A stretch of 64,000 nucleotides of DNA. Source: Nocardioidaceae bacterium. GTDB taxonomy: Bacteria > Actinomycetota > Actinomycetes > Propionibacteriales > Nocardioidaceae. Where the stretch lies: positions 62,001 through 126,000 of the forward strand of contig JAGIBL010000008.1 of the NCBI GenBank assembly GCA_017744365.1. Reading direction: 5' to 3'. A program made the translations under genes and the position numbers. Every line of letters starts with the position of its first letter. The first letter of the stretch is position 1. Below are positions 17,279-38,728 of this stretch, piece after piece. The notes beneath the pieces are model-generated. The model saw nothing but the letters and a program-made list of their open reading frames with translations. It did not search any database and was not told where the DNA came from.

Positions 17279-20143
17279 ATGACGGAGACGGCGAGCGGGG
17301 CCAAGGCGGCACAGGGGAGCCGGCGTGCCAAGGGCCTGAAGATCGAGCGGGTCTTCAGCACCGAGGGCGTGCACCCGTACGACGAGATCACCTGGGAGCG
17401 ACGCGACGTCGTCCAGACGAACTGGAAGACCGGTGAGTCCGTCTTCGAGCAGCGCGGCGTCGAGTTCCCCGACTTCTGGAGCGTCAACGCCTCCACGATC
17501 GTCACCACCAAGTACTTCCGCGGCGCGCTCGGCACCGACGCCCGCGAGTGGAGCCTGCGCCAGCTGGTCGACCGAGTCGTGAAGACCTACCGCCAGGGCG
17601 GCGAGGACCACGGCTACTTCGCCTCGCCGAAGGACGCCGAGATCTTCGAGCACGAGATCACCTGGCTGCTCGTGCACCAGTACTTCTCGTTCAACTCCCC
17701 GGTCTGGTTCAACGTCGGCACCAGCTCTCCCCAGCAGGTCTCCGCGTGCTTCATCCTCTCCGTCGACGACTCGATGGACTCGATCCTGAACTGGTACAAG
17801 GAAGAGGGCTTCATCTTCAAGGGCGGCTCCGGCGCCGGCCTGAACCTCTCCCGGATCCGCTCGAGCAAGGAGCTGCTGACCTCGGGCGGCACCGCCAGCG
17901 GCCCGGTCTCCTTCATGCGCGGTGCGGATGCCTCCGCGGGCACCATCAAGTCCGGCGGCGCCACCCGGCGCGCGGCGAAGATGGTCGTCCTCGACGTCGA
18001 CCACCCCGACATCGAGGAGTTCGTCGAGACCAAGGCGCGCGAGGAGGACAAGATCCGCGCGCTGCGCGACGCCGGGTTCGACATGGACCTGGGCGGCGCC
18101 GACATCACCTCGGTGCAGTACCAGAACGCCAACAACTCGGTGCGCGTGAGCGACGAGTTCATGCGCGCGGTCGAGGACGGCACCGAGTTCGGGCTGCGCT
18201 CGCGGACCACCGGCGAGATCATCGAGACCGTCGACGCCCGCGACCTGTTCCACAAGATCAGCAAGGCCGCGTGGGAGTGCGCCGACCCGGGTCTGCAGTA
18301 CGACGACACCATCAACGACTGGCACACCAACCCCGAGACCGGCCGGATCACCGCGTCCAACCCGTGCTCGGAGTACATGAGCCTGGACAACTCCTCGTGC
18401 AACCTGGCGAGCCTGAACCTGCTCAAGTTCCTCAAGGAGGACGACACCTTCGACGCGCCGCTGTTCGCGAAGGCGGTCGAGCTGATCATCACCGCGATGG
18501 ACATCTCGATCTGCTTCGCGGACTTCCCGACCGAGGCAATCGGCAAGACCACCGTCGACTACCGCCAGCTCGGCATCGGCTACGCCAACCTGGGCGCGCT
18601 GCTGATGGCGATGGGCCTGGGCTACGACTCCGACGGCGGCCGGGCGATGGCGGCGGCGATCACCAGCCTGATGACCGGTACGTCGTACAAGCGCTCGGCC
18701 GAGCTGGCCGGCGTGGTCGGCCCGTACAACGGCTACGCCCGCAACGCCGAGGCGCACAAGCGGGTGATGCGCAAGCACCAGGCCGCCAACGACGTGGTCC
18801 GCACGCTGGCCGTGGCTGACAGCCAGGTGCACAAGCTGGCCACGAAGGCCTGGGCCGAGGTGCTCAAGACCGGGGAGAAGAACGGCTTCCGCAACGCGCA
18901 GGCCAGCGTGCTGGCCCCGACCGGGACCATCGGCTTCATGATGGACTGCGACACCACCGGCATCGAGCCGGACTTCTCGCTGGTCAAGTTCAAGAAGCTC
19001 GTCGGCGGTGGCTCGATGCAGATCGTCAACCAGACGATCCCGCGGGCGCTGAAGAAGCTCGGGTACGTCGAGGAGCAGATCGAGGCGATCGTCGAGTACA
19101 TCTCCGAGCACGGCCACGTCATCGACGCCCCCGGCCTGCGCCAGGAGCACTACGAGGTCTTCGACACCGCGATGGGTGCGCGGGCGCTCAAGCCGATGGG
19201 CCACGTCCGGATGATGGCCGCGACCCAGCCGTTCCTGTCCGGTGCGATCAGCAAGACGGTCAACCTGCCTGAGACGGCGACCGTCGAGGAGATCGAGGAC
19301 ATCTACCTGCAGTCCTGGAAGCTCGGGCTGAAGGCGACCGCGGTCTACCGCGACAACTGCAAGGTGGGCCAGCCGCTGGCCGACGCCAAGGCCAAGCCGG
19401 CCGCCTCGTCGGCGTCGCCCGAGGCCGCTGCCGAGGTCAAGGTCGTCGAGGTCGCCAAGCCGTTCCGAAAGCGCCTCCCGAAGAGCCGCGCCGCGAAGAC
19501 CACCAGCTTCACCGTGGGCGGCGCCGAGGGCTACATGACCTCGGGCGCGCACGCCGACGGCGAGCTCGGCGAGATCTTCCTCAAGCTCGGCAAGCAGGGC
19601 TCCACCCTGGCCGGCGTGATGGACGCCTTCTCGATCGCGGTCAGCATCGGCCTCCAGTACGGCGTGCCGCTGGAGACCTACGTCTCGAAGTTCACCAACC
19701 TGCGCTTCGAGCCGAGCGGCATGACCGACGACCCGGACGTCCGGATGGCCCAGTCGATCATGGACTACATCTTCCGCAGGCTGGCGCTGGACTACATGTC
19801 CTTCGAGGAGCGCTCGATGCTCGGCATCTACTCGGCCGAGGAGCGCCAGCGCCACCTCGAGACGGGTTCGTACGAGCCGGTCGAGGAGACCGGTGGGGCC
19901 GAGGAGCTGATCTCCCACGAGGCTGTCGCGGCTCCGGCTGTCGAGGAGGCCGCTGCTCCGGCTCCGAAGATCGAGCTCGCGAAGCCGGCCCCGGCCGAGG
20001 CGCACACGAGCGCCGAGCTCCTGGAGCAGATCACCGGGACGGCCGTGGACAGCCCGCTGTGCATGACCTGCGGGACGAAGATGCGGCCGGCTGGCTCTTG
20101 CTACGTGTGCGAGGGGTGTGGGAGTACCTCGGGCTGCAGCTGA
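17279..20143 (+). CDS. nrdJ: Vitamin B12-dependent (class II) ribonucleoside-diphosphate reductase
   Basis: 954 residues from ATG 17279. It reduces ribonucleotides to deoxyribonucleotides using adenosylcobalamin. Landmarks are FSFNSPVWFNVG and QVSACFILSVDDSMDSIL near residues 140-170 (first active-site Cys), GSGAGLNLSRIR, and ITASNPCSEYMSLDNSSCNL near 360 (the N-P-C-S-E catalytic loop). VLAPTGTIGFMMDCDTTGIE near 545 and a C-terminal cysteine-rich tail (CMTCGTKMRPAGSCYVCEGC) that re-reduces the active site are also present. The alanine/proline linker at about 870-915 is normal for actinobacteria. It is probably cotranscribed with nrdR. An IS30 element begins 25 bases after the stop. Confidence 0.96.
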   Translation: MTETASGAKAAQGSRRAKGLKIERVFSTEGVHPYDEITWERRDVVQTNWKTGESVFEQRGVEFPDFWSVNASTIVTTKYFRGALGTDAREWSLRQLVDRVVKTYRQGGEDHGYFASPKDAEIFEHEITWLLVHQYFSFNSPVWFNVGTSSPQQVSACFILSVDDSMDSILNWYKEEGFIFKGGSGAGLNLSRIRSSKELLTSGGTASGPVSFMRGADASAGTIKSGGATRRAAKMVVLDVDHPDIEEFVETKAREEDKIRALRDAGFDMDLGGADITSVQYQNANNSVRVSDEFMRAVEDGTEFGLRSRTTGEIIETVDARDLFHKISKAAWECADPGLQYDDTINDWHTNPETGRITASNPCSEYMSLDNSSCNLASLNLLKFLKEDDTFDAPLFAKAVELIITAMDISICFADFPTEAIGKTTVDYRQLGIGYANLGALLMAMGLGYDSDGGRAMAAAITSLMTGTSYKRSAELAGVVGPYNGYARNAEAHKRVMRKHQAANDVVRTLAVADSQVHKLATKAWAEVLKTGEKNGFRNAQASVLAPTGTIGFMMDCDTTGIEPDFSLVKFKKLVGGGSMQIVNQTIPRALKKLGYVEEQIEAIVEYISEHGHVIDAPGLRQEHYEVFDTAMGARALKPMGHVRMMAATQPFLSGAISKTVNLPETATVEEIEDIYLQSWKLGLKATAVYRDNCKVGQPLADAKAKPAASSASPEAAAEVKVVEVAKPFRKRLPKSRAAKTTSFTVGGAEGYMTSGAHADGELGEIFLKLGKQGSTLAGVMDAFSIAVSIGLQYGVPLETYVSKFTNLRFEPSGMTDDPDVRMAQSIMDYIFRRLALDYMSFEERSMLGIYSAEERQRHLETGSYEPVEETGGAEELISHEAVAAPAVEEAAAPAPKIELAKPAPAEAHTSAELLEQITGTAVDSPLCMTCGTKMRPAGSCYVCEGCGSTSGCS

Positions 20144-20221
20144 GCCGAGGCTCAAGGAGGCGCTCACCAAGGCAGGAGCCCCCGGGGATTGGCGGTTTCT
20201 AGGAATCGTCGCAACACGGGG

Positions 20222-21463
20222 TTAGAACTGAAGCAAGGTAGCAAGGCGCTCGGCTGGGGTTTCCCAGCCGAGCGTTTTGCGTGGTCGGCCGTTGAGCTCG
20301 ACGGCGACTTCGGCCAGGTCGAGGGCGGTGTGTCGGGAGAGGTCGGTTCCCTTCGGGAAGTACTGGCGCAGCAGGCCGTTGGTGTTCTCGTTGCTGCCGC
20401 GCTGCCAGGGACTGGCCGGGTCACAGAAGTAGACCGGCATGTCGGTGGCCATGGTGAACTGGTGGTGGGCGCTCATCTCGCCGCCCTGGTCCCAGGTCAG
20501 CGACCGACGCAGGTGGGTGGGCAGGGTCAGCATCGTGGCGACCAGGGCGTCGCGGACCTGTTCGGCAGCGTGGCCCTTGGGCAGGTGGGCGAGGAGGACG
20601 TAGCGGGTGTGGCGCTCGACCAGGGTCGCGATCGCCGACTGGTGCCCGGCACCGATGATCAGGTCGCCCTCCCAGTGGCCCGGGACCGCGCGGTCCTCGG
20701 CCTCGGCAGGGCGTTCGCTGATCATCAGCATCGGCGCCACGAAACGTGACTGACGCTGATCCGGGCGACGTTGGGGCCGGCGGACTGCTCGGCCGGTGCG
20801 CAGACACTTGGCCAGCTCGCGGCGCAGCTCTCCGCGGCCTTGGACGTAGAGCGATTGGTAGATCGTCTCGTGGACCACGTGCATCTCCGGCCGGTCGGGG
20901 AACTGGCGTCTGAGCCGGCGGCAGATCTGCTCGGGACTCCACCTGCGCCGCAGACCCTGGGCGATGAAGTCTCTCAACACCGGGTCAGCGGCGATCTTGG
21001 ACTGCTTGGGCCTGGCGCGACGTTTCGCGGACCGCTCCTGAGCCGCCCAGGGCCGATAGTCCCCGGAACCCGGATGGGCGTTGCGGCGCACCTCTCGACT
21101 GATCGTCGAGGGACTCCTGTCCAGGCGTCGCGCGATCTCGCGCACCGAGAGCCGCTGGCGGCGCAGGTCGGCGATCTCGATCCGCTCCTCGACCGAGAGG
21201 AATCGGGCAGAGATCACCTTCTCGCTCGGTGGCCTCGGCCGCTGCCGCGGAGAGGACCACACCAGATGCCCGTCGAAGGTGAACCACCGGCCATTGCTCT
21301 TGGTGATGCCCTTGGCCCAGTCCCGACCGGTGCGCTCATGCACGCCAGCCTCTATCGACGCCTGCTTGGAGGTCATGCCCTGATCCAACAGTTCAAGGAA
21401 CCGAATCCGGGCAGCAGAAGGGCGCCGCCCCCGATAGGGACGGCGCCCGTTCTCGTTCTGCAT
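20222..21463 (-). CDS. IS30-family DDE transposase
   Basis: 413 residues, intact. N-terminal helix-turn-helix regions are at about 20-50 and 90-130 (LSVEERIEIADLRRQRLSVR, then RRLDRSPSTISREVRRN, the IS30 signature). The catalytic DDE core follows: Asp in GHWEGDLIIGAG near 247, Asp in LTWDQGGEM near 325, and Glu in RGSNENTNGLLRQYFPKGTD near 363. The ending KTLGWETPAERL is typical. The frame is complete, so the element may be active. Confidence 0.95.
   Translation of the reverse strand: MQNENGRRPYRGRRPSAARIRFLELLDQGMTSKQASIEAGVHERTGRDWAKGITKSNGRWFTFDGHLVWSSPRQRPRPPSEKVISARFLSVEERIEIADLRRQRLSVREIARRLDRSPSTISREVRRNAHPGSGDYRPWAAQERSAKRRARPKQSKIAADPVLRDFIAQGLRRRWSPEQICRRLRRQFPDRPEMHVVHETIYQSLYVQGRGELRRELAKCLRTGRAVRRPQRRPDQRQSRFVAPMLMISERPAEAEDRAVPGHWEGDLIIGAGHQSAIATLVERHTRYVLLAHLPKGHAAEQVRDALVATMLTLPTHLRRSLTWDQGGEMSAHHQFTMATDMPVYFCDPASPWQRGSNENTNGLLRQYFPKGTDLSRHTALDLAEVAVELNGRPRKTLGWETPAERLATLLQF
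20247..20278 (+). terminator. Strong hairpin terminator inside the 3' end of the IS30 transposase gene
   Basis: A perfect 12-bp stem (20247-20258 with 20263-20274) with a GTTT loop is followed by TTTT on the plus strand. It therefore stops transcription entering the element from nrdJ. The same bases encode part of the conserved transposase end GWETPAE on the minus strand. No T-run follows on the minus strand. Confidence 0.85.
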
Positions 21464-21617
21464 CGCAACTCCTGGATCACTCAGGTGTTGCTTCGACCCC
21501 TAGAACCCAAGATCACCCGAGGGCTCCTGCCTTTGTGTCAAGTACATGCGAGACACGTAACCGCTGAATGGCGCCTTCCGCAGATAATCTTCGGGATCCT
21601 TGTGATCCAAAACGGCT

Positions 21618-21636
21618 CTACATATTGCATATGTAG
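21618..21636. promoter_or_regulatory. 19-bp perfect palindrome upstream of the island operon
   Basis: CTACATAT and ATATGTAG (8-base arms) are separated by TGC. It is AT-rich in an otherwise GC-rich genome. It lies 50 bases upstream of the ATG at 21686, the first gene of the putative defence operon. It looks like a dimeric repressor operator covering the promoter region. The cognate regulator is not evident in the window. The rest of the 152-base gap 21534-21685 shows nothing else. Confidence 0.65.
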
Positions 21637-21685
21637 GACCATGATGCTCTACTTGGTCGACGCCCTACGACGCCGGGAGGTGGAC

Positions 21686-21913
21686 ATGGCACGGGACAGA
21701 CGCGAGCGCTTCGTAGCCCTGGCAGAGGCGCGAACTGACAAAGCGATACATGCCATACGACTTGTCGGCAATCTCGCGAACAAGTCAAACTATGAGTACG
21801 ACGAAGGTGACGCCAATCAGATCGTGCGGGCCCTCGAGCAGGAACTTCGCGCAGTCAAGTCTCGCTTCAGGGATGCGGCAGCAGGCAGAGAGACGGTCTT
21901 CAAGCTTCAGTAG
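21686..21913 (+). CDS. Small charged protein at head of putative defence operon
   Basis: 75 residues from ATG 21686, with GGGAGGTGG just upstream; an in-frame ATG at 21641 lacks a comparable site. The sequence is helical and charged: RERFVALAEARTDKAIHAI, then RLVGNLANKSNYEYDEGDAN and IVRALEQELRAVKSRFRD. The motif R-L-[IV]-G-N-L-[SA]-N-[KR]-S-N-Y-E-Y recalls a short protein I associate with mobile and defence islands in many bacteria; it has no assigned function. It ends 53 bases before the ATPase gene and is probably in the same operon. Confidence 0.75.
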   Translation: MARDRRERFVALAEARTDKAIHAIRLVGNLANKSNYEYDEGDANQIVRALEQELRAVKSRFRDAAAGRETVFKLQ

Positions 21914-21966
21914 TGAGTCGCTTGCAACATCGGCCGACTCGAAACATTCTCTAGTTAGGTGCAATC

Positions 21967-23901
21967 GTGATGGATCCTCGGTGGCAGTGGCAAAGAGCCA
22001 ATCGGGCCTACGGCAACTACGGCAACGCCAACCAATGGACTGTAGGTTCTGGCTTCGAGTCCCTTGCCCGCGAGAGCGCCCAGAACTCGAATGATGCACG
22101 CCTTTCGCGTGACGAGACTTCGGAGCTCGTCTACACCTTCATCCGCCTAGGGCCAGAAGCGCGTTCGAGGTTCGAGGCTGCGGTCGGCTGGCCCATTCTG
22201 GTTGAGCATCTCGGCGCAATGGCCGACGTCGCAACGAGTGCAGTGGCTGCGGGTCAGATCAAGGCGGGCGTCGAAGCTCTTGGCGAAAGCCACGACTTGC
22301 TCTTGCTACAGGTCTCCGACTACGGCTGCAAAGGCTTGACGGGACCAGAGTTCCCCGATGACGAGACTCCTGAGGATGAGTTCGGCAACTTCATCAAGCT
22401 TTGCAGGCTCGATCTGTTCTCGGGAAAGGACAAGGCTGCGGGAGGATCCTTCGGGCTCGGGAAGGCGGTCTACTGGCGATTCTCCTGGCTTCAGACCGTG
22501 CTGTTCAACTCGAGACTTAGGGCCGAGGACGCAGTTCAAGGCAAAGTGGCGAACCGCGTCTTCGGCGTAAATCAAGGCGTACGACACAAGGTCAATGGAA
22601 AGACCTTCGAGGGAAGGGGCTTCTTCGGCGCTTGCCAAGCAGAGGAAGCCGATGTCGAGTCCCTCTGGGCAAGCGACGAGCTTGTTGAGGCCCTACATCT
22701 CGACCGTAAAGACTCTCGTCCGGGGACAACTGCCCTGCTGATCGGCTTTTACGATCCTGATCAGCCTGATCGGGGTCAGGCAGGTGGCGATGGTCTATTG
22801 GAGGTCGCTCGCGCGTTGCGGTCCGGTATCGAGGAGAACTTTTGGCCCCTTCTCACGCGCGGGCGCATGAAGGTTTCTGTCGTGGTCGTCGATGATGGCG
22901 AAGTGCTGATGGACGAGATCGTCGACCCCGAGGACCAATACACAGAACTGGTGAAGGCGCTGAGACGCTTCGATGCTGGCGATGTAGATGACAAACTCGA
23001 AGGCGAATACTCGATGGTGGTTCGCGACATCCCGATCCAGGTATCTCAGCGGGTCGACGGATTGCAGGATCACCCTCCATTCGAACATCGCGCCAAGTTG
23101 GTCGTGACGTTGTCTGACGGTGTTGCGGACTCCTTGGAGAATCAAGTGTGCTTGTTGCGGCAGCCAGAGATGGTAGTGCAGCGCATCCACCGAGAGTACG
23201 AATCGACGTTTCACGCTTTCCTTTTGGCAGGGGCATCGATCAATCCCGCGTCAGCTACCGAGAACGATTTGAGAGCCGATGATTTTCTCCGTTTTGCTGA
23301 GCCGCCCGCGCATGATCAATGGATACCCGCTGGGTCGTCCCAAGCTAACCTGAACGGCAGATACCGCGCTCCGTGGATTCCGAACCTGAAGGCCATCGAG
23401 GACGAGGTTGCGAAGGCGTTGTTCGAGCTCCTTGGAAGTCCTGTGAATGTTGCGGACAAGGGCCCCGAAGCAATACTCAAACATCTCCGCTTCCTCCCGG
23501 GCGATCCCGGGGATCGTGGAGTCGGAGTCGGCCCGAAGGCGGGGCCATCGATCACCCTGACCGATTGGAAGGTCGTCGATGGATGCTGGGATGTGGTGTT
23601 CTCCGTCAACGCTCCCAACAGGGCGGAAGGATGGAAACTCGATCCGAGGCTGAAGTTCGTAGGCCTCGACGGCAAGGGACAGACCGTCGAATGGCAGAAG
23701 ATCGAAGTCGTGAGCGACGGAGAGGTTGTTGATGAACGCTCGACAGTATTCGTGAAGCCGAAGCCCAGGAAACGCAGAGTGACGTCGGTGTTCAAGGGGC
23801 GATCCGTGGTCGACCTTCCGATCCCCGCTGAGGAAGCAGCGATCGACGTGCTTGTTGGGAAGGTGCATCCACTACCTGCGGTGAGGGAGGACGGACAGTG
23901 A
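21967..23901 (+). CDS. GHKL-type (Hsp90/MORC-like) ATPase of putative defence island
   Basis: 644 residues from GTG 21967 (an ATG follows immediately). The N-terminal 170 residues carry all the nucleotide-binding boxes of the GHKL fold. The N box is ESAQNSNDA (Glu36, Asn40, Asp43). The G1 box is SDYGCKGLTG (Asp118, Gly120, Gly123). The G2 lid is AGGSFGLGKAVYW (159-165). There is no histidine-kinase dimerisation segment and no MutL-type C-terminus. Residues about 200-330 may be the S5-like transducer that follows in Hsp90/topoisomerase-type proteins. The final 150 residues are beta-rich and unrecognised. Similar stand-alone GHKL ATPases are known beside restriction-modification genes. It is coupled by GTGA overlap to the next gene. 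The base composition is lower in GC than the flanks. Confidence 0.82.
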   Translation: MMDPRWQWQRANRAYGNYGNANQWTVGSGFESLARESAQNSNDARLSRDETSELVYTFIRLGPEARSRFEAAVGWPILVEHLGAMADVATSAVAAGQIKAGVEALGESHDLLLLQVSDYGCKGLTGPEFPDDETPEDEFGNFIKLCRLDLFSGKDKAAGGSFGLGKAVYWRFSWLQTVLFNSRLRAEDAVQGKVANRVFGVNQGVRHKVNGKTFEGRGFFGACQAEEADVESLWASDELVEALHLDRKDSRPGTTALLIGFYDPDQPDRGQAGGDGLLEVARALRSGIEENFWPLLTRGRMKVSVVVVDDGEVLMDEIVDPEDQYTELVKALRRFDAGDVDDKLEGEYSMVVRDIPIQVSQRVDGLQDHPPFEHRAKLVVTLSDGVADSLENQVCLLRQPEMVVQRIHREYESTFHAFLLAGASINPASATENDLRADDFLRFAEPPAHDQWIPAGSSQANLNGRYRAPWIPNLKAIEDEVAKALFELLGSPVNVADKGPEAILKHLRFLPGDPGDRGVGVGPKAGPSITLTDWKVVDGCWDVVFSVNAPNRAEGWKLDPRLKFVGLDGKGQTVEWQKIEVVSDGEVVDERSTVFVKPKPRKRRVTSVFKGRSVVDLPIPAEEAAIDVLVGKVHPLPAVREDGQ

Positions 23902-24839
23902 CGGCGCGCTTTGCGTGGCCTCAATTTCGCTCGCCATGGATGCTCCAAGTATCGGTTGGGTCGGTCGACGGGGATGCAAGCGTTCCTTCCGGAATAGTCG
24001 ACGAGGCAGCTCGCCGTGTTCGCCTGGATCTGCTCAGTGACTGGACCGAAGCATCCCTCAGCCTCGACTTGCGAACTACAGAAGGCTCACCGAGTGGGGT
24101 GCAGGTGGATTCGGCGACCGTTGTGATCTCGGCGCCGCGAGCGAATTTCCGTTCGCCAGTTCGTCTCGATAGGGATGAGGATGGATTTGTAGCAACTACT
24201 GCAGTTCGCAGGGAGTGGCTTGCGGGTGTTGCAAGTGTCGAAGCGCTGGTCCTCGATGGCCCGCCGAAGATGCACGTCATCGGTCAAGCAGACCCGTGGA
24301 CGATGGTGATCGATCCTGTAGACGCGCCCCGCCCGCCCGGCGCGCCCCCGATTGAGATCCGCTGGGTGGATTTCACGGCTCCCGAGGCCAAGCATCTTAA
24401 CGCCACCTACGGCTCTTATGCGCTCGTCGACTTCCGCGAGCCGAAGCCTGTCCTATTTCTGAATCGGGGGATCAGGGGACTGCAAGAGATCCTCGAGGGA
24501 AGTGGCCATAAAGAGAAGCGGAGGTTGCGTGAGCTTCTGGGCAGCAGCATCGCGAAATACACAACTGAAGCATTGTTTCGAGAGGCATGCGCGCAGGCGG
24601 AGGGCCTCATGGATGATGATGGCGGAGTGAACTTGCCGAGTGATCGCGTGCTTGCGGATATCTTGCGCGCTGTAGCCGGCGAGGTGCCGTCAGTCGAGAC
24701 GGTGGATGAGCTGCTGACCTCACTGCAGAGCGAGGTCGAAAGACGGAAACTGTGGTCGGAGATAGACCATGCGATCGACAGACTTAGCGGCAACGCCGGG
24801 GTTGTTGCCGGCGTCCTTGGGGAGGTCTGGAGTGTCTGA
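23898..24839 (+). CDS. Unrecognised partner of the GHKL ATPase
   Basis: 313 residues from a GTG overlapping the ATPase stop by four bases. No known domain is recognised. The first half (residues 1-150) is predicted beta-rich (VRLDLLSDWTEASLSLDLRT, VQVDSATVVISAPRANF). The second half contains YALVDFREPKPVLFLNRGIR followed by helical, charged segments (GSGHKEKRRLRELLGSSIAK). There is no signal peptide or membrane segment, and no P-loop or PD-(D/E)XK motif seen. Tight coupling on both sides implies a complex with the ATPase and the DUF6339-like protein. Confidence 0.72.
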   Translation: MTARFAWPQFRSPWMLQVSVGSVDGDASVPSGIVDEAARRVRLDLLSDWTEASLSLDLRTTEGSPSGVQVDSATVVISAPRANFRSPVRLDRDEDGFVATTAVRREWLAGVASVEALVLDGPPKMHVIGQADPWTMVIDPVDAPRPPGAPPIEIRWVDFTAPEAKHLNATYGSYALVDFREPKPVLFLNRGIRGLQEILEGSGHKEKRRLRELLGSSIAKYTTEALFREACAQAEGLMDDDGGVNLPSDRVLADILRAVAGEVPSVETVDELLTSLQSEVERRKLWSEIDHAIDRLSGNAGVVAGVLGEVWSV

Positions 24840-25698
24840 GACCGAGGTGTTGATGCGCGCCACTCATGTTTTCGACGCTGGCGATCATTCGAAGCTATCC
24901 GACGGCCAATCACTTTCAGAAGAGTCGACAGAGAAGGTCGTGCGCGAGGGAGGTAAGACTGTCGATTTGACGGCGTTCCGCGATCTGATGCGCGACTTCA
25001 CGACTCGTGTCGCCAAGGGGGAGTGGTCGAGCGATCGATCGGAAAGTGATCGCTGGCTGGCGCCACGGCTTCATTACGCGCTACGACTGACGCGCGCTGA
25101 GGCAGCGGATCGATTCCTTTGGCACTGGCTCGCCTGCGTTCCCTCCCGGCAATACGTCGTGTGGCGCTGGGACGGAGCTAAAGGTGTGACCGACGATCGC
25201 TGGTTCGGCCCGGTCCACAAGCAGGCTCTGGCCAGGCTGTGGTGGGGAGCGGAACTATTCAGGGATGGTGCAGACTACAACCCGGTCGAGCGGGCCTTCA
25301 TCAGGCAGGACTTCATCAACAGCTATCTTCACCGCCCTATCGCGCGATGTCGCTCCTTCGGGTTGGGCATCCTGGACGTTCTGACGACCTCAGAAGGTAG
25401 TGCGCTCAAGGCTGCCGAGGTGAATAACGTTGCGAGGGTCCTCAACCTGATTACAGCTGGAAGCCCCCCGGAAGCCCGTGTCGGGTTCCAGGCGGATGAC
25501 CTAGTCGCATACGGCGATTGGGCCACCTCTAAGGCGCGGCCGCAGGTTGATTGGAGTGATCTGCCGCTTGGGCCCTCCGCATTTGATACGACCGAAGGAT
25601 CGATTCGAGGAGGGCGCGCCCTGGCACAACATGGACTCGAGGTCGCGCGGGAGCGTTATGGGACGAAGAGAGCTACCCAGGCCCGTGAGAACGCCTAG
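24832..25698 (+). CDS. DUF6339-like protein of the putative defence operon
   Basis: 288 residues from GTG 24832. The start overlaps the previous stop by eight bases (GTGTCTGA) and has a GGGGAGG site. Recognisable blocks are SDRWLAPRLHYALRLTRAEA, DRFLWHWLACVPSRQYVVWR, HKQALARLWWGAELFRDGAD and RPIARCRSFGLGILDVLTT. They resemble proteins annotated DUF6339, which has no assigned function; this match is from memory. The protein is tryptophan-rich, helical and probably cytoplasmic. It is the last plus-strand gene of the operon and is convergent with the methyltransferase gene, the stops overlapping. Confidence 0.7.
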   Translation: MSETEVLMRATHVFDAGDHSKLSDGQSLSEESTEKVVREGGKTVDLTAFRDLMRDFTTRVAKGEWSSDRSESDRWLAPRLHYALRLTRAEAADRFLWHWLACVPSRQYVVWRWDGAKGVTDDRWFGPVHKQALARLWWGAELFRDGADYNPVERAFIRQDFINSYLHRPIARCRSFGLGILDVLTTSEGSALKAAEVNNVARVLNLITAGSPPEARVGFQADDLVAYGDWATSKARPQVDWSDLPLGPSAFDTTEGSIRGGRALAQHGLEVARERYGTKRATQARENA

Positions 25699-26798
25699 GC
25701 GCGCAACGCGTCGGTGAGTAGTCGGCCAATCGCAGCTCCAAGGGCTATGGGCACTGCGTTGCCGATTTGGCGCGCGATCTGGACTTTAGAACCGACCCAT
25801 CGATAATCATCGGGAAACCCTTGAATCCGCGCGGCCTCGCGATGAGTGATTGCCCGATGCTCGGACGGATGAAGGTAGCGGCCCTTCTCTGGCTTGAAGA
25901 ACTCGGTCCGTATTGTGACTGAAGGGCGATCCCATCGGAGCCTACCCATGACGTCTCCGGCTCCTGATTGGTGCTTTCGCCAGCAGGGAGCAAGCAGCTG
26001 ATCGGGGATATCGAACCGATTTCCGCCCGCAGGGATGTGCGCAAACCGGCGGAGAGATGTGTCTTCGTAATGGCGTGTCACGTGCAGTTCGGTCGAGCGG
26101 AAGCGCCCCGGATGCATCCTGCCCTCATGCTTCGTCCACCGGTCCGGCAGGTCGATGACGTGTGTTGGTGCCCGCAACCTGCCGATGACCTGACGCACCG
26201 TAACCCATTGTGGTTCGGAGTGGGTCGGCGCGGGGAATCCGGGAAACTCCAAATCGCGGTGATGCCCGATTACGATCACTCGTTTACGTATCTGAGCAGC
26301 CCCGAAGTTGGCTGAGTTCAGGACCTTTGCCTGGAATGCATAGTCCTCGAGCAGTCCACCTGATTCACACTGGCGCGCAAATTCGACTCGCTGTTGAGAC
26401 GATAGAAACTGGGGGACGTTCTCAAGAACGAAATACTTGGGAGCGGCGCGTTGTACGGTTTCGGCGTATTGCCACCATAGGCTGTTCCGCTTGTCGTTGA
26501 CGTCTTGCTTGCCGAGAGCGGAGAACCCTTGGCATGGCGGTCCGCCGATCACTACGTCGGCCTCCGGAACTTCCTCGCTGGTGAGCCATTTCTCGATCGG
26601 TCCGGTAAATACGGAGCCTGCGCCGTGATTCGCGCTATACGTGGCGGCCGCCGCAGGATCTGACTCGACTGCCCGTATTGTGGTGAAGTCAGCGGTGTGA
26701 GAAGAAGTGCGCAGACCTTCAGAAAGTCCGCCAGCTCCGGAGAAGAGATCGAGCACTCGCACAGCTGGCCTGGTGCCGCCAGTCTGCTCCCGCTCCAT
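25695..26798 (-). CDS. dcm: DNA (cytosine-5) methyltransferase, Dcm type
   Basis: 367 residues from ATG 26798. All C5-methyltransferase motifs are visible: I (LDLFSGAGGLSEGL, near 16, SAM binding), IV (GGPPCQGFS with catalytic Cys89), VI (ENV, 126-128), VIII (QIRKR, 169-173) and X (ARQIGNAVP near the end). The target-recognition region lies at about 200-300 and does not reveal the site. It is divergent from vsr and convergent with the DUF6339-like gene. It may protect host DNA from a nuclease of the same island or serve as an epigenetic mark for it. Confidence 0.95.
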   Translation of the reverse strand: MEREQTGGTRPAVRVLDLFSGAGGLSEGLRTSSHTADFTTIRAVESDPAAAATYSANHGAGSVFTGPIEKWLTSEEVPEADVVIGGPPCQGFSALGKQDVNDKRNSLWWQYAETVQRAAPKYFVLENVPQFLSSQQRVEFARQCESGGLLEDYAFQAKVLNSANFGAAQIRKRVIVIGHHRDLEFPGFPAPTHSEPQWVTVRQVIGRLRAPTHVIDLPDRWTKHEGRMHPGRFRSTELHVTRHYEDTSLRRFAHIPAGGNRFDIPDQLLAPCWRKHQSGAGDVMGRLRWDRPSVTIRTEFFKPEKGRYLHPSEHRAITHREAARIQGFPDDYRWVGSKVQIARQIGNAVPIALGAAIGRLLTDALRA

Positions 26799-26849
26799 GG
26801 TAGCGAGAGTAGCCACCGCAACCCTCAAGGATTGGCATCTTCTTGCAGA

Positions 26850-27293
26850 ATGGTCGGCGTGTCGCAGAAGGCCCGTTCACGCAGCCTCGCCACCGACGAG
26901 GCAACGTCGCTGCGGATGTCCAGTCAACGAAGCCTCGGAACTAAACCGGAGCTCGAGCTTCGTCGGCTTCTCCACGCCCGAGGGCTACGCTACCGCGTCA
27001 ATGTCGCGCAACCCGGGATGCCGCGCCGCCGAGTCGATGTGGTGTTCTCTCGGGTCAAAGTCGCTGTCTTCGTCGACGGCTGCTTTTGGCACGGTTGTCC
27101 TCAGCATGCGACGTGGCCGAAACGAAACAGCGACTGGTGGGCGGAGAAGCTCACGCGGAACGCTCAGCGTGATCGCGAGACGACTGAAGCGCTGGAAGTG
27201 CAGGGATGGACGGTCGTGCGTGTCTGGGAGCACGAGGACCCCAAAGAAGCTGCCGATCGCATCGAGTCGGTGGTGAGAGGGAAGAGCCTCTGA
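26850..27293 (+). CDS. vsr: Very short patch repair (Vsr) mismatch endonuclease
   Basis: 147 residues from ATG 26850; the longer open frame upstream is antisense to dcm. It has the Vsr pattern SLGTKPELELRRLLHARGLR, VDVVFSRVKVAVFVDGCFWH (with catalytic Asp63), GCPQHATWPKRN (zinc-binding Cys/His and active-site His) and VVRVWEHED at the end. It nicks beside T:G mismatches produced by deamination of 5-methylcytosine. This is why it sits 51 bases from the methyltransferase gene, divergently. Confidence 0.94.
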   Translation: MVGVSQKARSRSLATDEATSLRMSSQRSLGTKPELELRRLLHARGLRYRVNVAQPGMPRRRVDVVFSRVKVAVFVDGCFWHGCPQHATWPKRNSDWWAEKLTRNAQRDRETTEALEVQGWTVVRVWEHEDPKEAADRIESVVRGKSL

Positions 27294-27331
27294 TTTCCAA
27301 AGTCGCGTCAGCCTCTAGCCGGTGGCGTCCC

Positions 27332-29053
27332 TCAGGTCCAACCAGCAGACCTTCGCCGCTCTGGCGGGGGCACCGGAGGCTTTCCGTGCATCTCGATCGC
27401 GTCGAAATGGAGAACATAACGGCCGGCTTCGACTTGACGTGGAACTAGATCAAAGTCAGCACCCTGCTGGGGCATCGGGAAGGAAACGAGCGCGTCGATG
27501 AACGCGCGGAGGTTCGGCTGCGGTAGAACTTGCTCGACGAGGCGTAGCGACGTTGTACGAATGTCGCTGTCGGATCCGGCGGCAGTGCTGTCGAGCTGTT
27601 GGGCGGATCCGACCCACCAGCTGAACGCTGTTGACTCGGGTAGGTCCCAACCACGGGGCCAATCCGGAGTTGCGTTTCGCGACGCCAGGGCGTCACGGAC
27701 TTGGCCGAGCTGCTTGCGACCAGAGGCGAAGTGCGCATCAACCTTTGCACCCTCGACGAGAGTGGCGGCGTCGATGGGCCATTTTGTCTCGAATACCACC
27801 GCAAAAGCACGCGTGCGGTCCCACGCGACAACGTCGAGATCGCCGAGAGTCCGCCCAGTTGCGTCCTTCACGCGAACACGCTCCGCCACTTCACACTCCG
27901 GTATTGACCTAAGCCGTTGCCCCCAGCGGCGCGCACGGTCACCGAGGACCCTGCCCAGGCCGCCGGTCCGACCAGGATCCGCGCTGGCGGCTCTGAGTAG
28001 CGTGCGTTCGAATCCCACCGGAGACACCAGAGGTGCCGGGATCATCAGCAGATCTCGATGAGGGATCAGGGGAGCAGAAACCGGGCTGCGTCCCTTCGCG
28101 TATCGCGTCAGATCCACGAAAGCTCTAGCGACCGGCGCATCGACGTAGCGTTGGAGCAGTCGCTGGAGATTATGCGGCTTGATCCCCCAGACAAGAGATG
28201 CCTCGCTCTCCAGATGGATGGCACAGAGCTCGTTGATGAATAGCTGTGCGATCAGGACGGCATAACAGGCCCGAGCCTCATCGAGAGTCAGTCCGCCGAG
28301 GTCCGTGTCGCTGGGGACGGACGTTCCTTGTTCTTCCAGCATTGCGTGCGCATCCCGCCAAGCCGATCGGCGCAGGGACTCGGGGAGGTCATGGACCCTA
28401 TGGGGATGACCGCGGTTCGCAACGAACCAGGCTCTGATTTGGCTCAGGTCTTGGGGTGCGCTCTGCGGATTGAGGATCGTCACCTGCTCCAAAAGTATGT
28501 CAAGTACCTCTACGTCGGCGCGGCGATGGTTACGGATCCAGATATGCCGTCCTCGCGCATCTCGAATGCTGACGTCCCCTGTGACTAGGCCGAAGCGAAT
28601 CGCGTCGAGCGCCTCCCAATCCGCAGCAAGATCGCAGGCAATCTCGATGTCCTTGAAGCCAATCCCTCGTGCGATCGTTCGGCGGCCCCTCCGTCGCTGA
28701 CGCCCACGTTGGGGGTTGGATGGGTGTGATGGGGGGACAGGAGACGGCCGATTGGTGCCGTGATCCGCATTCCATCTGACCATCGATTGTGCGGCGTGGG
28801 TGAAGCGTTCGACGGACCGAGTGGACTCCCGCAAGTGATCGGGTGCCCTGAGCGCAGGATGAAGGCCCTCGCGTGCTAGCTGTTCGATCCGTCGCATCGC
28901 AAGCAACTTGAGCATCGTTGGAAGCGCGTCTGTACCGGAGTGCCAGATTGCAAGATCCGCAGGCATACGTGCAATCAGCTCGGCCAGTTCTGCTTCTTGC
29001 ACGAGGCAAGTGTGGCGCACCCGCTCGCGTTGATACATGAGATCGTGGGTCAC
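27332..29053 (-). CDS. Large PD-(D/E)XK nuclease-like protein of the island
   Basis: 573 residues from GTG 29053; ATG 29038 (MYQRERVRH) is an equally possible start. The first 390 residues are helical and unrecognised. Residues about 385-430 carry a PD-(D/E)XK-type core: VRVKDATGRTLGDLDVVAWD followed by AFAVVFETKWPID, giving Asp405/Asp407 and Glu422-x-Lys424. This is the arrangement of restriction-type nucleases and NERD-like proteins. It faces the rest of the island from the other strand. Its upstream region is the helicase fragment at 29056, so its promoter must lie in or be shared with that fragment. A restriction role beside dcm is inference. Confidence 0.75.
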   Translation of the reverse strand: MTHDLMYQRERVRHTCLVQEAELAELIARMPADLAIWHSGTDALPTMLKLLAMRRIEQLAREGLHPALRAPDHLRESTRSVERFTHAAQSMVRWNADHGTNRPSPVPPSHPSNPQRGRQRRRGRRTIARGIGFKDIEIACDLAADWEALDAIRFGLVTGDVSIRDARGRHIWIRNHRRADVEVLDILLEQVTILNPQSAPQDLSQIRAWFVANRGHPHRVHDLPESLRRSAWRDAHAMLEEQGTSVPSDTDLGGLTLDEARACYAVLIAQLFINELCAIHLESEASLVWGIKPHNLQRLLQRYVDAPVARAFVDLTRYAKGRSPVSAPLIPHRDLLMIPAPLVSPVGFERTLLRAASADPGRTGGLGRVLGDRARRWGQRLRSIPECEVAERVRVKDATGRTLGDLDVVAWDRTRAFAVVFETKWPIDAATLVEGAKVDAHFASGRKQLGQVRDALASRNATPDWPRGWDLPESTAFSWWVGSAQQLDSTAAGSDSDIRTTSLRLVEQVLPQPNLRAFIDALVSFPMPQQGADFDLVPRQVEAGRYVLHFDAIEMHGKPPVPPPERRRSAGWT

Positions 29054-29055
29054 TG

Positions 29056-29322
29056 ATGACCCGGGAGGCTTGGGACGCCGCCCTCGAGGAGTACTACGCC
29101 GAGCACGACAGGGTGGGCACTGACGCGGACGCGCGCGGACCGGCCCTGCTAGTGATCGACCGCGGCGTCATCGAGGGCGGCGGCCGCCGCTGGCGGGTCC
29201 GGCAGGCCCTCGCCGACCCGGAAGGTCACCACGACTGGGTGATCGAGGCCGAGGTGGACGCCGACGCCTCCGACGAGCTGGGCGACCTGGTCCTGACGAC
29301 CACGGCGATGCGGCGCCTCTGA
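29056..29322 (+). pseudogene. Orphan 3' fragment of a Ski2-like helicase (DUF3516 end)
   Basis: 88 codons whose translation matches the last 83 residues of the helicase at 36203-38728 at about 67 aligned positions by my count (AWDAALEEYYAEHD, GHHDWVIEAEV, DASDELG, LVLTTTAMR). A five-residue insertion (around RGVIEGGG) is the only gap. Similarity begins at the ATG (29056). No ribosome-binding site precedes it, and the start lies two bases from the divergent nuclease gene. It looks like the surviving 3' end of a second helicase copy cut off at the island's right border. It has drifted but kept an open frame, so a small functional protein cannot be excluded. Confidence 0.7.
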
Positions 29323-35791: not shown

Positions 35792-36206
35792 CGCGAGCAT
35801 CGTCGTCGAGTGGGTGATGCCGCTCCCCGGGGGCGAAGCCGAGGAGCGTCTGCTCGCGCGGCTCGAGTCGGCCGGGGCCGAGCTGCACGCGCCGCACCTG
35901 CTCATCCAGGAAGTGGCCAACGCCCTGCTGACGGGAGTGCGGCGGGGGCGCTGGACGCCGGTGGCGGCGGACGACGCGTTCACGACCCTGGATCAGCTCC
36001 CGCTGATCCGGTACTCGGTGAACAACGATCTGGAGCGTGCCTGGGACCTGGCTCGCCGCTACGACGAGCACCCGTTCTACGACATGGTGTACGTCGCCGC
36101 CGCCGAGCGGTTGGGGACCGTCCTGATCACGTCCGATCAACGTCTCAGAGATCGCATCCGGCGCCCCGAGCTCGTGGTCGGTCCCGACGAGTGGGTGCCT
36201 GCGTGA
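35778..36206 (+). CDS. vapC: PIN-domain toxin, VapC-like ribonuclease
   Basis: 142 residues from GTG 35778 (VPVLDASIVVEW). The PIN active-site acidic residues are visible: Asp in LDASIVVEW (residue 5), Glu in LIQEVANAL (near 47), Asp in FYDMVYVAAAERLG (near 101) and Asp in LITSDQRL (near 119). Such toxins cut tRNA or other RNA and are held by the antitoxin encoded just before. Its stop overlaps the helicase start by four bases (GTGA), an unusual coupling of a toxin with a housekeeping-type helicase. Confidence 0.88.
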   Translation: MPVLDASIVVEWVMPLPGGEAEERLLARLESAGAELHAPHLLIQEVANALLTGVRRGRWTPVAADDAFTTLDQLPLIRYSVNNDLERAWDLARRYDEHPFYDMVYVAAAERLGTVLITSDQRLRDRIRRPELVVGPDEWVPA

Positions 36207-38728
36207 GTGACGCGGCGTACGAGCGGGTCCTGGGCTGGACCGCCCAGCAGGGGCTGGAGCTCTACCCGCACCAGGACGAGGCAATCCTCGAGGTCCTTGC
36301 CGGCAGCAATGTCGTCCTCGCTACTCCCACCGGATCCGGCAAGTCCCTGGTCGCGACCGGGGCGCACATGGCGGCGCTGGCGGAGGACCGGGTGTCGTTC
36401 TACACCGCGCCGATCAAGGCGCTGGTGAGCGAGAAGTTCTTCGCGCTGTGCGCGATCTTCGGGGCGAAGGACGTCGGGTTGCTGACCGGGGACGCCTCGG
36501 TGAACCCGGACGCGCCGATCATCTGCTGCACCGCGGAGGTGCTGGCCAACATCGCGCTGCGCGAAGGTGCGCAGGCCGATGTCGGCCTGGTGGTCATGGA
36601 CGAGTTCCACTACTACGCCGACCCGCAGCGCGGCTGGGCGTGGCAGGTTCCTCTGCTGGAGCTCCCGCAGGCGCAGTTCGTGCTGATGTCCGCCACCCTG
36701 GGCGACACCAGCGAGCTCGCGAAGGACCTCACCCGGCGCAACGGACGCGAGACCGCGATCGTCGACCAGGCGGAGCGGCCGGTGCCGCTGCACTTCAGCT
36801 GGTCGCTGGAACCGCTCGGCGACACCCTGGAGGAGCTGGTCGCGACCGGGCAGGCGCCGGTCTACGTCGTGCACTTCACGCAGGCGGCCGCGGTGGAGCA
36901 CGCGACGTCGCTGCTGAAGGCGGCCAAAGCCAAGCCGGACGAACGACTCGCCGAGCGGCTGGCCGGCGTACGGTTTGCGGCGGGGTTCGGGAAGACGCTC
37001 TCGAAGCTGCTGCGCCGGGGGATCGGCGTGCACCATGCCGGGATGCTGCCGCGGTACCGGCGGCTGGTCGAGCAGCTCGCGCAGGAGGGCCTGCTCACGG
37101 TGATCTGCGGGACCGACACCCTCGGCGTCGGCATCAACGTGCCGATCCGCACGGTGCTGTTCACCTCGCTGGCGAAGTTCGACGGGCAGAAGCAGCGGGT
37201 GCTGCGGACGCGGGAGTTCCTGCAGATCGCGGGCCGCGCCGGCCGTCCGGGCTTCGACACCTCCGGGTACGTCGTCGTCCAGGCACCCGAGCACGTCATC
37301 GAGAACGCCAAGGCGCAGGCCAAGGCGGACGCGAAGAACGCCGCGATGAGCGAGGCCAAGCTGGCCAAGCGGAAGTCGAAGGCGCAGCTGAAGAAGGCGC
37401 CGGAAGGCACGGTGGTGTGGACCCGGGCGACGTTCGACAAGCTCGTCGCCGGTGCCCCGGAGCAGCTGCGGTCGCGGATGAAGGTCGACAACGCGATGCT
37501 GGTCAACGTCGTCGCGCGCGAGGAGGACGCGTTCGCGGTGATGCGCCGCCTGCTGATGGACAACCACGAGGACCGTCGTACGCAGCTGAAGCTGGCCCGG
37601 CGCGCACTCCGGCTGGCGCGCGGACTGGTCCGCAACGGTGTGCTGCAGCGCCTCGACGAGCCGGACGAGTTCGGACGCCGGTACGTCCTCACCGTCGAGC
37701 TGCCCGAGGACTTCGCGCTCAACCAGCCGCTGGCGCTGTTCGCGATCGCGGCGCTCGATCTGCTCGACACCGACGCACCGGCGTACGTCCTGGACGTGGT
37801 CTCGGTGATCGAGGCGGTGCTGGACCAGCCGCGACAGATCCTGTTCGCGCAGCAGCACGAGGCCCGCGGCGAGGCCATCGCGGAGATGAAGGCCGACGGC
37901 CTGGAGTACGACGAGCGGATGGCGCTGCTCGAGCAGGTCGCCTGGCCCAAGCCGCTGGCGGATCTGCTCGAGCCGGCGTTCGAGACGTACCGGCAGAGCC
38001 ACCCGTGGCTGCCGGTCGACGCGCTGGACCCGAAGTCGGTGGTGCGGGAGATGTACGAGCAGGGCATGGGCTTCACCGACTTCGTGAGCCGCTACAAGAT
38101 CGCCCGCTCGGAGGGCCTGGTGCTGCGCTACCTCTCCGACGCCTATCGCACGCTGCGGCAGACGGTGCCCGACGCGCACCGGACCCCTGAGCTCGACGAG
38201 CTCGTCGAGTGGCTGGGGGAGACCGTACGGCAGACGGACTCCTCGCTCCTCGACGAGTGGGAGGCGCTGGCCGACCCCGACCACGTGCCACGCACCGTCG
38301 TCGAGGGGGCACCGCCGCCGCCACGGCCGCTGTCGCAGCAGGAGCGCCCGTTCCGGGTGATGATCCGCAACGCGATGTGGCGCCGGGTGCAGCTGGTGGC
38401 GCGCGACGATATCCCCGGGCTGGCGGCGCTGGAGGATCTCGATGCGGCGAGGTTCGAGCCGCCGCGCGAGGTCGCGATGACGCGCCAGGCATGGGACGCC
38501 GCCCTCGAGGAGTACTACGCCGAGCACGACACCGTGGGCACCGACGCCGATGCACACGGACCGGACCTGCTGATGATCGAGCGGACCGGTCACCTCTGGC
38601 TGGTACGGCAGACCCTCGCCGACCCGGCTGGTCATCACGACTGGGTCATCGAGGCCGAGGTGGACACGGACGCCTCCGACGAGCTGGGGGAGCTGGTGCT
38701 CACGACGACCGCGATGCGGCAGCTGTAG
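36203..38728 (+). CDS. Ski2-like DExH-box RNA helicase with DUF3516 C-terminus
   Basis: 841 residues from GTG 36203. Motif I is TPTGSGKS (41-48), Ia YTAPIKALVSEKF, II DEFH (VVMDEFHYY), III LMSATLGD. The second RecA domain has GVHHAGMLPRYRR, ICGTDTLGVGINVPI and motif VI QIAGRAGRPG. These are Ski2/Mtr4-family features. A lysine-rich helical insertion follows (about 370-400, KLAKRKSKAQLKKAPEG). The last 300 residues are the DUF3516 domain of actinobacterial helicases. It is likely an RNA-processing or surveillance helicase. A diverged copy of its last 83 codons stands alone at 29056-29322. Confidence 0.9.
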   Translation: MSDAAYERVLGWTAQQGLELYPHQDEAILEVLAGSNVVLATPTGSGKSLVATGAHMAALAEDRVSFYTAPIKALVSEKFFALCAIFGAKDVGLLTGDASVNPDAPIICCTAEVLANIALREGAQADVGLVVMDEFHYYADPQRGWAWQVPLLELPQAQFVLMSATLGDTSELAKDLTRRNGRETAIVDQAERPVPLHFSWSLEPLGDTLEELVATGQAPVYVVHFTQAAAVEHATSLLKAAKAKPDERLAERLAGVRFAAGFGKTLSKLLRRGIGVHHAGMLPRYRRLVEQLAQEGLLTVICGTDTLGVGINVPIRTVLFTSLAKFDGQKQRVLRTREFLQIAGRAGRPGFDTSGYVVVQAPEHVIENAKAQAKADAKNAAMSEAKLAKRKSKAQLKKAPEGTVVWTRATFDKLVAGAPEQLRSRMKVDNAMLVNVVAREEDAFAVMRRLLMDNHEDRRTQLKLARRALRLARGLVRNGVLQRLDEPDEFGRRYVLTVELPEDFALNQPLALFAIAALDLLDTDAPAYVLDVVSVIEAVLDQPRQILFAQQHEARGEAIAEMKADGLEYDERMALLEQVAWPKPLADLLEPAFETYRQSHPWLPVDALDPKSVVREMYEQGMGFTDFVSRYKIARSEGLVLRYLSDAYRTLRQTVPDAHRTPELDELVEWLGETVRQTDSSLLDEWEALADPDHVPRTVVEGAPPPPRPLSQQERPFRVMIRNAMWRRVQLVARDDIPGLAALEDLDAARFEPPREVAMTRQAWDAALEEYYAEHDTVGTDADAHGPDLLMIERTGHLWLVRQTLADPAGHHDWVIEAEVDTDASDELGELVLTTTAMRQL

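Follow-up and report, generated by a model that had tools for sequence, protein, structure and literature searches.

The 7.5-kb island directly 3' of nrdJ in this 4.76-Mb host genome is a defense-type DNA restriction-modification (R-M) locus, of a general kind that is already catalogued but here represented by a compact form that includes an unnamed nuclease. We examined the island within a window, by which we mean the whole stretch of DNA analyzed (64,000 nucleotides; coordinates given without a locus handle refer to it). A preliminary description had proposed an undescribed defense system at this position. While the defense-type character was borne out and all of the genes described were confirmed at their coordinates, the system is not undescribed: its ATPase and DUF6339 protein match the candidate system PDC-M33 in PADLOC, and related systems appear in earlier papers (PMC2292703, PMC9523054). 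The reading that we favor, with a probability of about 0.55, is an acquired Type II-like R-M system, with a Dcm-type methyltransferase as M, Vsr as V, and a 573-residue protein (NUC) as R, joined to a constant helper cassette, S75-GHKL-B-DUF6339. This reading is based on the constant order of the cassette, its linkage to Dcm and Vsr, the varying R slot, and protein B and DUF6339 lacking a nuclease fold, together with the NUC motif, the absence of Z1 and presence of a single C5-methyltransferase genome-wide, and the likeness of Dcm to NgoMIV- and NaeI-linked enzymes. The features of the locus are listed below.

20165..21537, minus strand: IS30-family element between nrdJ and the island (transposase 20222-21463; NCBIfam IS30, E=5e-89)
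21618..21636, no strand: perfect palindrome and putative operator, lying 50 bases before the first cassette gene
21686..21913, plus strand: S75, small first cassette gene, with homologs directly upstream of GHKL ATPase genes
21967..23901, plus strand: GHKL ATPase, PDC-M33A-like and paraMORC-like (PADLOC PDC-M33A, E=1.9e-18), ATPase motifs intact
23898..24839, plus strand: protein B, predicted to form an Ig-like beta-sandwich followed by a helical C-terminal domain, with no catalytic fold recognized
24832..25698, plus strand: protein C, DUF6339, PDC-M33C-like (Pfam PF19866, E=1e-13; PADLOC PDC-M33C, E=3.5e-8)
25695..26828, minus strand: Dcm-type cytosine-5 DNA methyltransferase (PF00145, E=1.7e-62)
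26850..27293, plus strand: Vsr mismatch endonuclease (TIGR00632, E=8.5e-34, above cut-off; start approximate, with an ATG at 26850)
27332..29053, minus strand: NUC, putative PD-(D/E)XK nuclease of 573 residues, assigned by motif; start codon uncertain
29055..29314, plus strand: right island edge, fragment from the 3' end of a DUF3516 helicase gene (81% identity with that end of the intact copy, 38476-38720)

The lower GC content noted earlier for this region was confirmed, with values of 58 to 63% in the island versus 65 to 78% in the flanks. The GC3 of the island genes (0.63 to 0.67) is likewise below that of most flanking genes (about 0.9), and the block is therefore probably foreign. The IS30 element previously placed on the left side was verified both by NCBIfam and by the 53-base terminal inverted repeats that enclose the transposase (20165-20217/21485-21537). 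On the right, the low-GC DNA ends at 29054, and the 260-base DUF3516 fragment starts right there. The intact DUF3516 helicase gene lies 9 kb away (35810-38728), and the fragment may be a truncated paralog or a trace left by the insertion.

We compared the DNA 3' of nrdJ across 14 congeneric genomes. Several of these relatives have other defense genes at the site: a type IV methyl-directed restriction enzyme in G350, an Orf5/HEC-06-type protein in G358, a type I R-M system in G341, a Dcm in G346, and Dpd proteins in G355. Further, G328, from another genus of the same family, carries a distant version of the ATPase cassette directly 3' of an nrdJ-like gene, itself assigned by its length and matching N terminus. 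Given this variety of defense genes, the 3' side of nrdJ is a recurrent defense landing site in this genus and in at least one other of the family. The landing-site loci are window positions 20143-29054, L045, L087, L090, L093, L096, and L097.

The cassette has the structure first attributed to it. The ATPase retains intact N, G1, and G2 boxes, and all of the motif residues are invariant (N box, R35, E36, Q39, N40, and D43; G1, D118, G123, and G126; G2, G160, G163, and G165). Two partner genes are coupled to it by overlaps of 4 bases (GHKL/B, 23898-23901) and 8 bases (B/DUF6339, 24832-24839), the second partner being DUF6339 by its Pfam match (PF19866). No match to the ATPase was found in viral contigs or phage records. 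An XRE helix-turn-helix is present at the N terminus of many GHKL relatives, and two have a region made up of sigma-70 plus helix-turn-helix. At L020 (9155-12748) and L022 (9030-12626), the GHKL ATPase reads as a single long frame whose N terminus holds a sigma-70-like region and an XRE helix-turn-helix; in L020, the sigma-70-like region spans r2-r3-r4 (Pfam). This N terminus echoes mzaA of the Mza system, which is a sigma factor (PMC9523054).

Upstream of these genes, the palindrome CTACATATTGCATATGTAG was confirmed at 21618-21636 and is unique in the window. It consists of 8-base arms around a 3-base spacer, and simulations of the same intergenic stretch gave a P value of about 0.009. A search upstream of homologous operons did not find the palindrome conserved. 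The 75-residue protein reported next to it is real: its ORF has a GGGAGG ribosome-binding site, and homologs with 35 to 44% identity are encoded immediately before GHKL ATPase genes in Deinococcus, Arthrobacter, Priestia, Planococcus, and Alphaproteobacteria, and so also outside the phylum of the host. In Agrobacterium and Dinoroseobacter, the gene that follows S75 codes for a different HATPase-like protein, and next to it lie genes for an ATP-binding protein (in Agrobacterium, AAA_21 by Pfam) and a UvrD helicase. Because S75 lies upstream of differing GHKL-type ATPases, it seems to be tied to GHKL-type ATPases in defense operons generally. The runs of S75, different HATPase-like protein, ATP-binding protein, and UvrD at L199 (6025-11297) and L201 (5986-12213) are possible GHKL-extended Gabija-like operons.

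Protein B is conserved between the ATPase and DUF6339 genes. Its AlphaFold2 model (pLDDT, 84.5; pTM, 0.57) combines an Ig-like sandwich with a helical C-terminal domain, and Foldseek returned weak PDB matches, mostly to Ig/FN3-like sandwiches. No PADLOC model matched protein B, whether from the window or from five relatives. The structural model of DUF6339 (pLDDT, 89; pTM, 0.89) is mainly or entirely helical and had no significant match in the PDB or among BFVD viral models, making it a fold without a solved relative. We also considered each of the two proteins as a nuclease and rejected both, as neither a nuclease fold nor a nuclease motif was found. Since the modeled folds of B and DUF6339 are not nuclease-like, NUC and Vsr would be left as the only nucleases predicted for the island. 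A search of the openly accessible literature found no paper naming DUF6339 or PDC-M33.

These proteins could also be read as a guard or abortive-infection module, triggered by inhibition of the linked R-M system, instead of as a cleavage helper. The cassette stays constant while the R-M types change, and S75 is also found ahead of another HATPase that adjoins a Gabija-like pair of AAA_21 ATPase and UvrD helicase, which would mean that GHKL-S75 modules serve other defenses. We nevertheless consider a guard function quite unlikely, since no toxin-like effector was found in S75, B, or DUF6339, and the strong association of the cassette is with Dcm, not with other systems.

To describe how the cassette recurs, we used 63 loci found through similarity to the ATPase. 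These loci are non-independent, with many from one genus, and they were picked by ATPase similarity; the counts that follow are thus tallies and not probabilities. DUF6339 was present in 60/63 loci, Dcm in 57/63, Vsr in 48/63, and NUC in 0/63. Protein B was detected in 42/63 by the model used, and the gene in its position in Z1-type loci is a B homolog by profile comparison (probability, 96%). The linkage of Dcm and Vsr to the ATPase, which had been suggested from the window, holds across phyla. The preliminary description had asked whether the ATPase occurs mostly without the methyltransferase and nuclease genes: its association with the methyltransferase stood (57/63), and its association with this nuclease did not (0/63). 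The idea that the 573-residue nuclease belongs to a fixed six-gene set was consequently abandoned, as NUC is missing from all 63 loci and occurs elsewhere with other systems.

The order S75-GHKL-B-DUF6339 is identical in Deinococcus, Arthrobacter, Priestia, and Planococcus, where B was assigned mainly by its position and size and the profile match is weak. Synechococcus has a compact four-gene run, GHKL-B-DUF6339-Dcm, and in haloarchaea GHKL-B-DUF6339 is found near Dcm. One haloarchaeal plasmid (L052; 1749-5489 and 11884-15513) carries two opposite GHKL-B-DUF6339 cassettes ∼6 kb apart with one Dcm between them.

The module beside the cassette varies across the 63 loci: a TmtA-like helicase plus UvrD in 23, Z1 plus DUF4420 in 22, a DrmA-like protein in 6, and none of these in 12. 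That relatives have Z1 and DUF4420 (22/63) or TmtA and UvrD (23/63), and that an IS30 element sits at the island edge, might suggest a decayed, inactive remnant from which a Z1/DUF4420 or helicase module was lost. This is barely plausible to us, because every reading frame and motif is intact and helicase-free forms recur in Deinococcus, Arthrobacter, Priestia, Planococcus, and Synechococcus.

The nuclease beside Dcm/Vsr also differs among relatives of the cassette. In this slot we found two NgoMIV-family proteins (L019), NaeI-family proteins (L045, L175, and L177), an EcoRII-C protein (Arthrobacter), a MutH/Sau3AI protein (Priestia), a NOV_C protein (Deinococcus), and an AlwI-like protein (Planococcus; by annotation, with the Pfam score just under the cut-off). 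NUC occupies the slot in the window and appears to be one of a set of nucleases that can replace one another, with its position and motif suggesting that it may serve as R. In L050 and L168, no restriction enzyme was identified near the cassette; the Dcm of L050 has an unassigned extension.

The presence of Dcm, Vsr, and the 573-residue protein was confirmed, the first two through Pfam and NCBIfam. Dcm carries GGPPCQGFS, ENV, and QIGNAVP, including the catalytic PCQ and ENV motifs, and gave the single C5-methyltransferase match in the whole genome. Its identity is 47% with the Dcm linked to NgoMIV and 40 to 44% with those linked to NaeI. The enzyme NaeI recognizes GCCGGC. The NgoMIV site is GCCGGC as well, according to a review in which the NaeI site is printed differently (PMC4081073). 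From these sequence likenesses, we give GCCGGC about an even chance of being the Dcm target; confidence in this prediction is only moderate because the target-region core of L177, one of the three NaeI-linked Dcms, shares only 26% identity with that of the window Dcm. No avoidance of GCCGGC was seen in the window or the island, which is uninformative. At L045 (2246-3616), an AspBHI-like modification-dependent restriction enzyme adjoins the Dcm/Vsr/NaeI set.

The D..D..E-x-K nuclease core ascribed to NUC held at the level of motif, as an invariant GDLD...ExK: G404-D-L-D407 and E422-x-K424 are the same in 5/5 aligned members (NUC and four homologs, 26 to 45% identity). The homologs begin about 20 to 25 residues after the annotated NUC start. 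No family match was found in Pfam, NCBIfam, or PADLOC. Kinship to DUF4420 or Vsr was rejected by profile comparison, and there was no Pfam match to DUF4420 either. By sequence, NUC would thus fall outside the described restriction-enzyme families in the libraries searched. It is rare (about 1% of class genomes), and none was found in plasmid records or viral contigs. NUC follows directly after Dcm-Vsr in L033, in the same Vsr>/<NUC arrangement as in the window, and adjoins Dcm genes in L032, where the gene beside it was considered as a Vsr and rejected, as it looks like a nucleotidyltransferase. In two Streptomyces loci (L036 and L038), it lies beside DrmAB, Mza, Vsr, and Dcm. There is no Dcm nearby in L039, where NUC is beside PglW, or in Nocardia L037, which has none of the named systems. 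At L195 (9687-10461), stop codons interrupt the NUC gene, which has Z1, DUF4420, AIPR, Vsr, and Dcm genes (Mza-type) as neighbors.

The broken NUC gene beside an Mza-type system and the two loci without an identified restriction enzyme count against an R-M system with a helper cassette. Moreover, NUC was seen with this cassette once and also occurs without Dcm (L037 and L039), so it may be an unrelated neighbor. The island would then hold two independent neighbors: a PDC-M33/paraMORC system (cassette, Dcm, and Vsr) that works without NUC and a separate defense nuclease. Such independence would account for the 0/63 tally, for NUC elsewhere with other systems or alone, and for the L050 and L168 cassettes without a recognized nuclease. 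We judge it somewhat unlikely, however, given that the cassette proteins have no predicted catalytic nuclease, that most helicase-free relatives have a nuclease beside Dcm/Vsr, and that the layout of NUC in the window is repeated in L033.

Under the favored reading of an R-M system with a helper cassette, Dcm would methylate host sites and thereby protect them, and Vsr would repair the T:G mismatches that arise from deamination of 5mC. NUC would cut unmarked DNA, filling the slot of the NaeI, NgoMIV, EcoRII-, MutH/Sau3AI-, and AlwI-type enzymes. The GHKL protein may act as a clamp gated by ATP; working with B and DUF6339, it would engage unmodified DNA or bridge it, and would license or boost cleavage by any nuclease present. 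A role of this kind was proposed in general form for paraMORCs by Iyer et al. 2008 (PMC2292703).

EcoRII and NaeI loop DNA. Both are Type IIE enzymes, NgoMIV is Type IIF, and all three act on two sites at once (PMC4081073). This fits a bridging helper, in what is a small pattern. By extension, S75-GHKL-B-DUF6339 could be a portable restriction-enzyme activator, a methylation-gated, ATP-driven clamp joining distant sites, and NUC a new restriction-enzyme family with the same mode. This extension is speculative and in our view unlikely; because the cases are few and two-site enzymes are common, the pattern may be a coincidence.

A constant cassette beside changing restriction enzymes makes the helper role directly testable. 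With one C5-methyltransferase and one candidate nuclease, this compact, helicase-free locus is a small and clean system for studying the role of a GHKL ATPase in restriction, and the pairing of the cassette elsewhere with the well-studied NaeI, NgoMIV, and EcoRII families aids in asking what bacterial MORC-like ATPases do.

Among known systems, PADLOC assigns the ATPase as PDC-M33A and DUF6339 as PDC-M33C. PDC stands for "phage defence candidate" (PMC11514479), and the pair is therefore catalogued, as a candidate only. The window shares both proteins with PDC-M33, while its protein B has no PADLOC match. The locus also resembles paraMORC as given in the excerpted text of Iyer et al. 2008 (PMC2292703), where a GHKL ATPase lies beside Dcm, Vsr, and restriction-fold nucleases: the window has an intact GHKL ATPase, Dcm, Vsr, and a nuclease whose fold is assigned by motif. 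According to that text, an SFII helicase is found in about 70% of MORC neighborhoods and is not obligatory. None was found at 20.2 to 29.05 kb, which makes the locus a helicase-free minority form, and DUF6339, B, and S75 are unnamed in the excerpted text. The earlier statement that the locus has neither Z1 nor a helicase was correct, and Z1 is absent from the whole genome as well as the window.

The putative Type I defense systems of Miller et al. 2022 comprise a C5-methyltransferase, three uncharacterized genes, and DNA-repair endonucleases (PMC9523054). The window shares the C5-methyltransferase but has neither the Z1 nor the DUF4420-type PD-(D/E)XK core proteins (printed as DUF4220); the Z1, DUF4420, and Dcm relatives of the cassette do fit this type (PMC9523054). 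Like Mza (mzaABCDE), the window has a GHKL ATPase with Dcm/Vsr neighbors, and NUC lies beside Mza in Streptomyces (L036 and L038) and, broken, in L195. However, Mza has a GHKL ATPase of another family (HATPase_c_3), and the window is without Z1, DUF4420, and AIPR. Membership in Mza was rejected because MzaC (Z1), MzaD, and MzaE (AIPR) had no match, and membership in DISARM because the DrmA helicase and DrmB had no match in the window. Although the R candidate of the window is NUC rather than a described enzyme family, the locus is like Type II R-M systems with Vsr (NaeI, NgoMIV, and EcoRII types), in which M lies beside V and R and which, in several relatives, have the same cassette.
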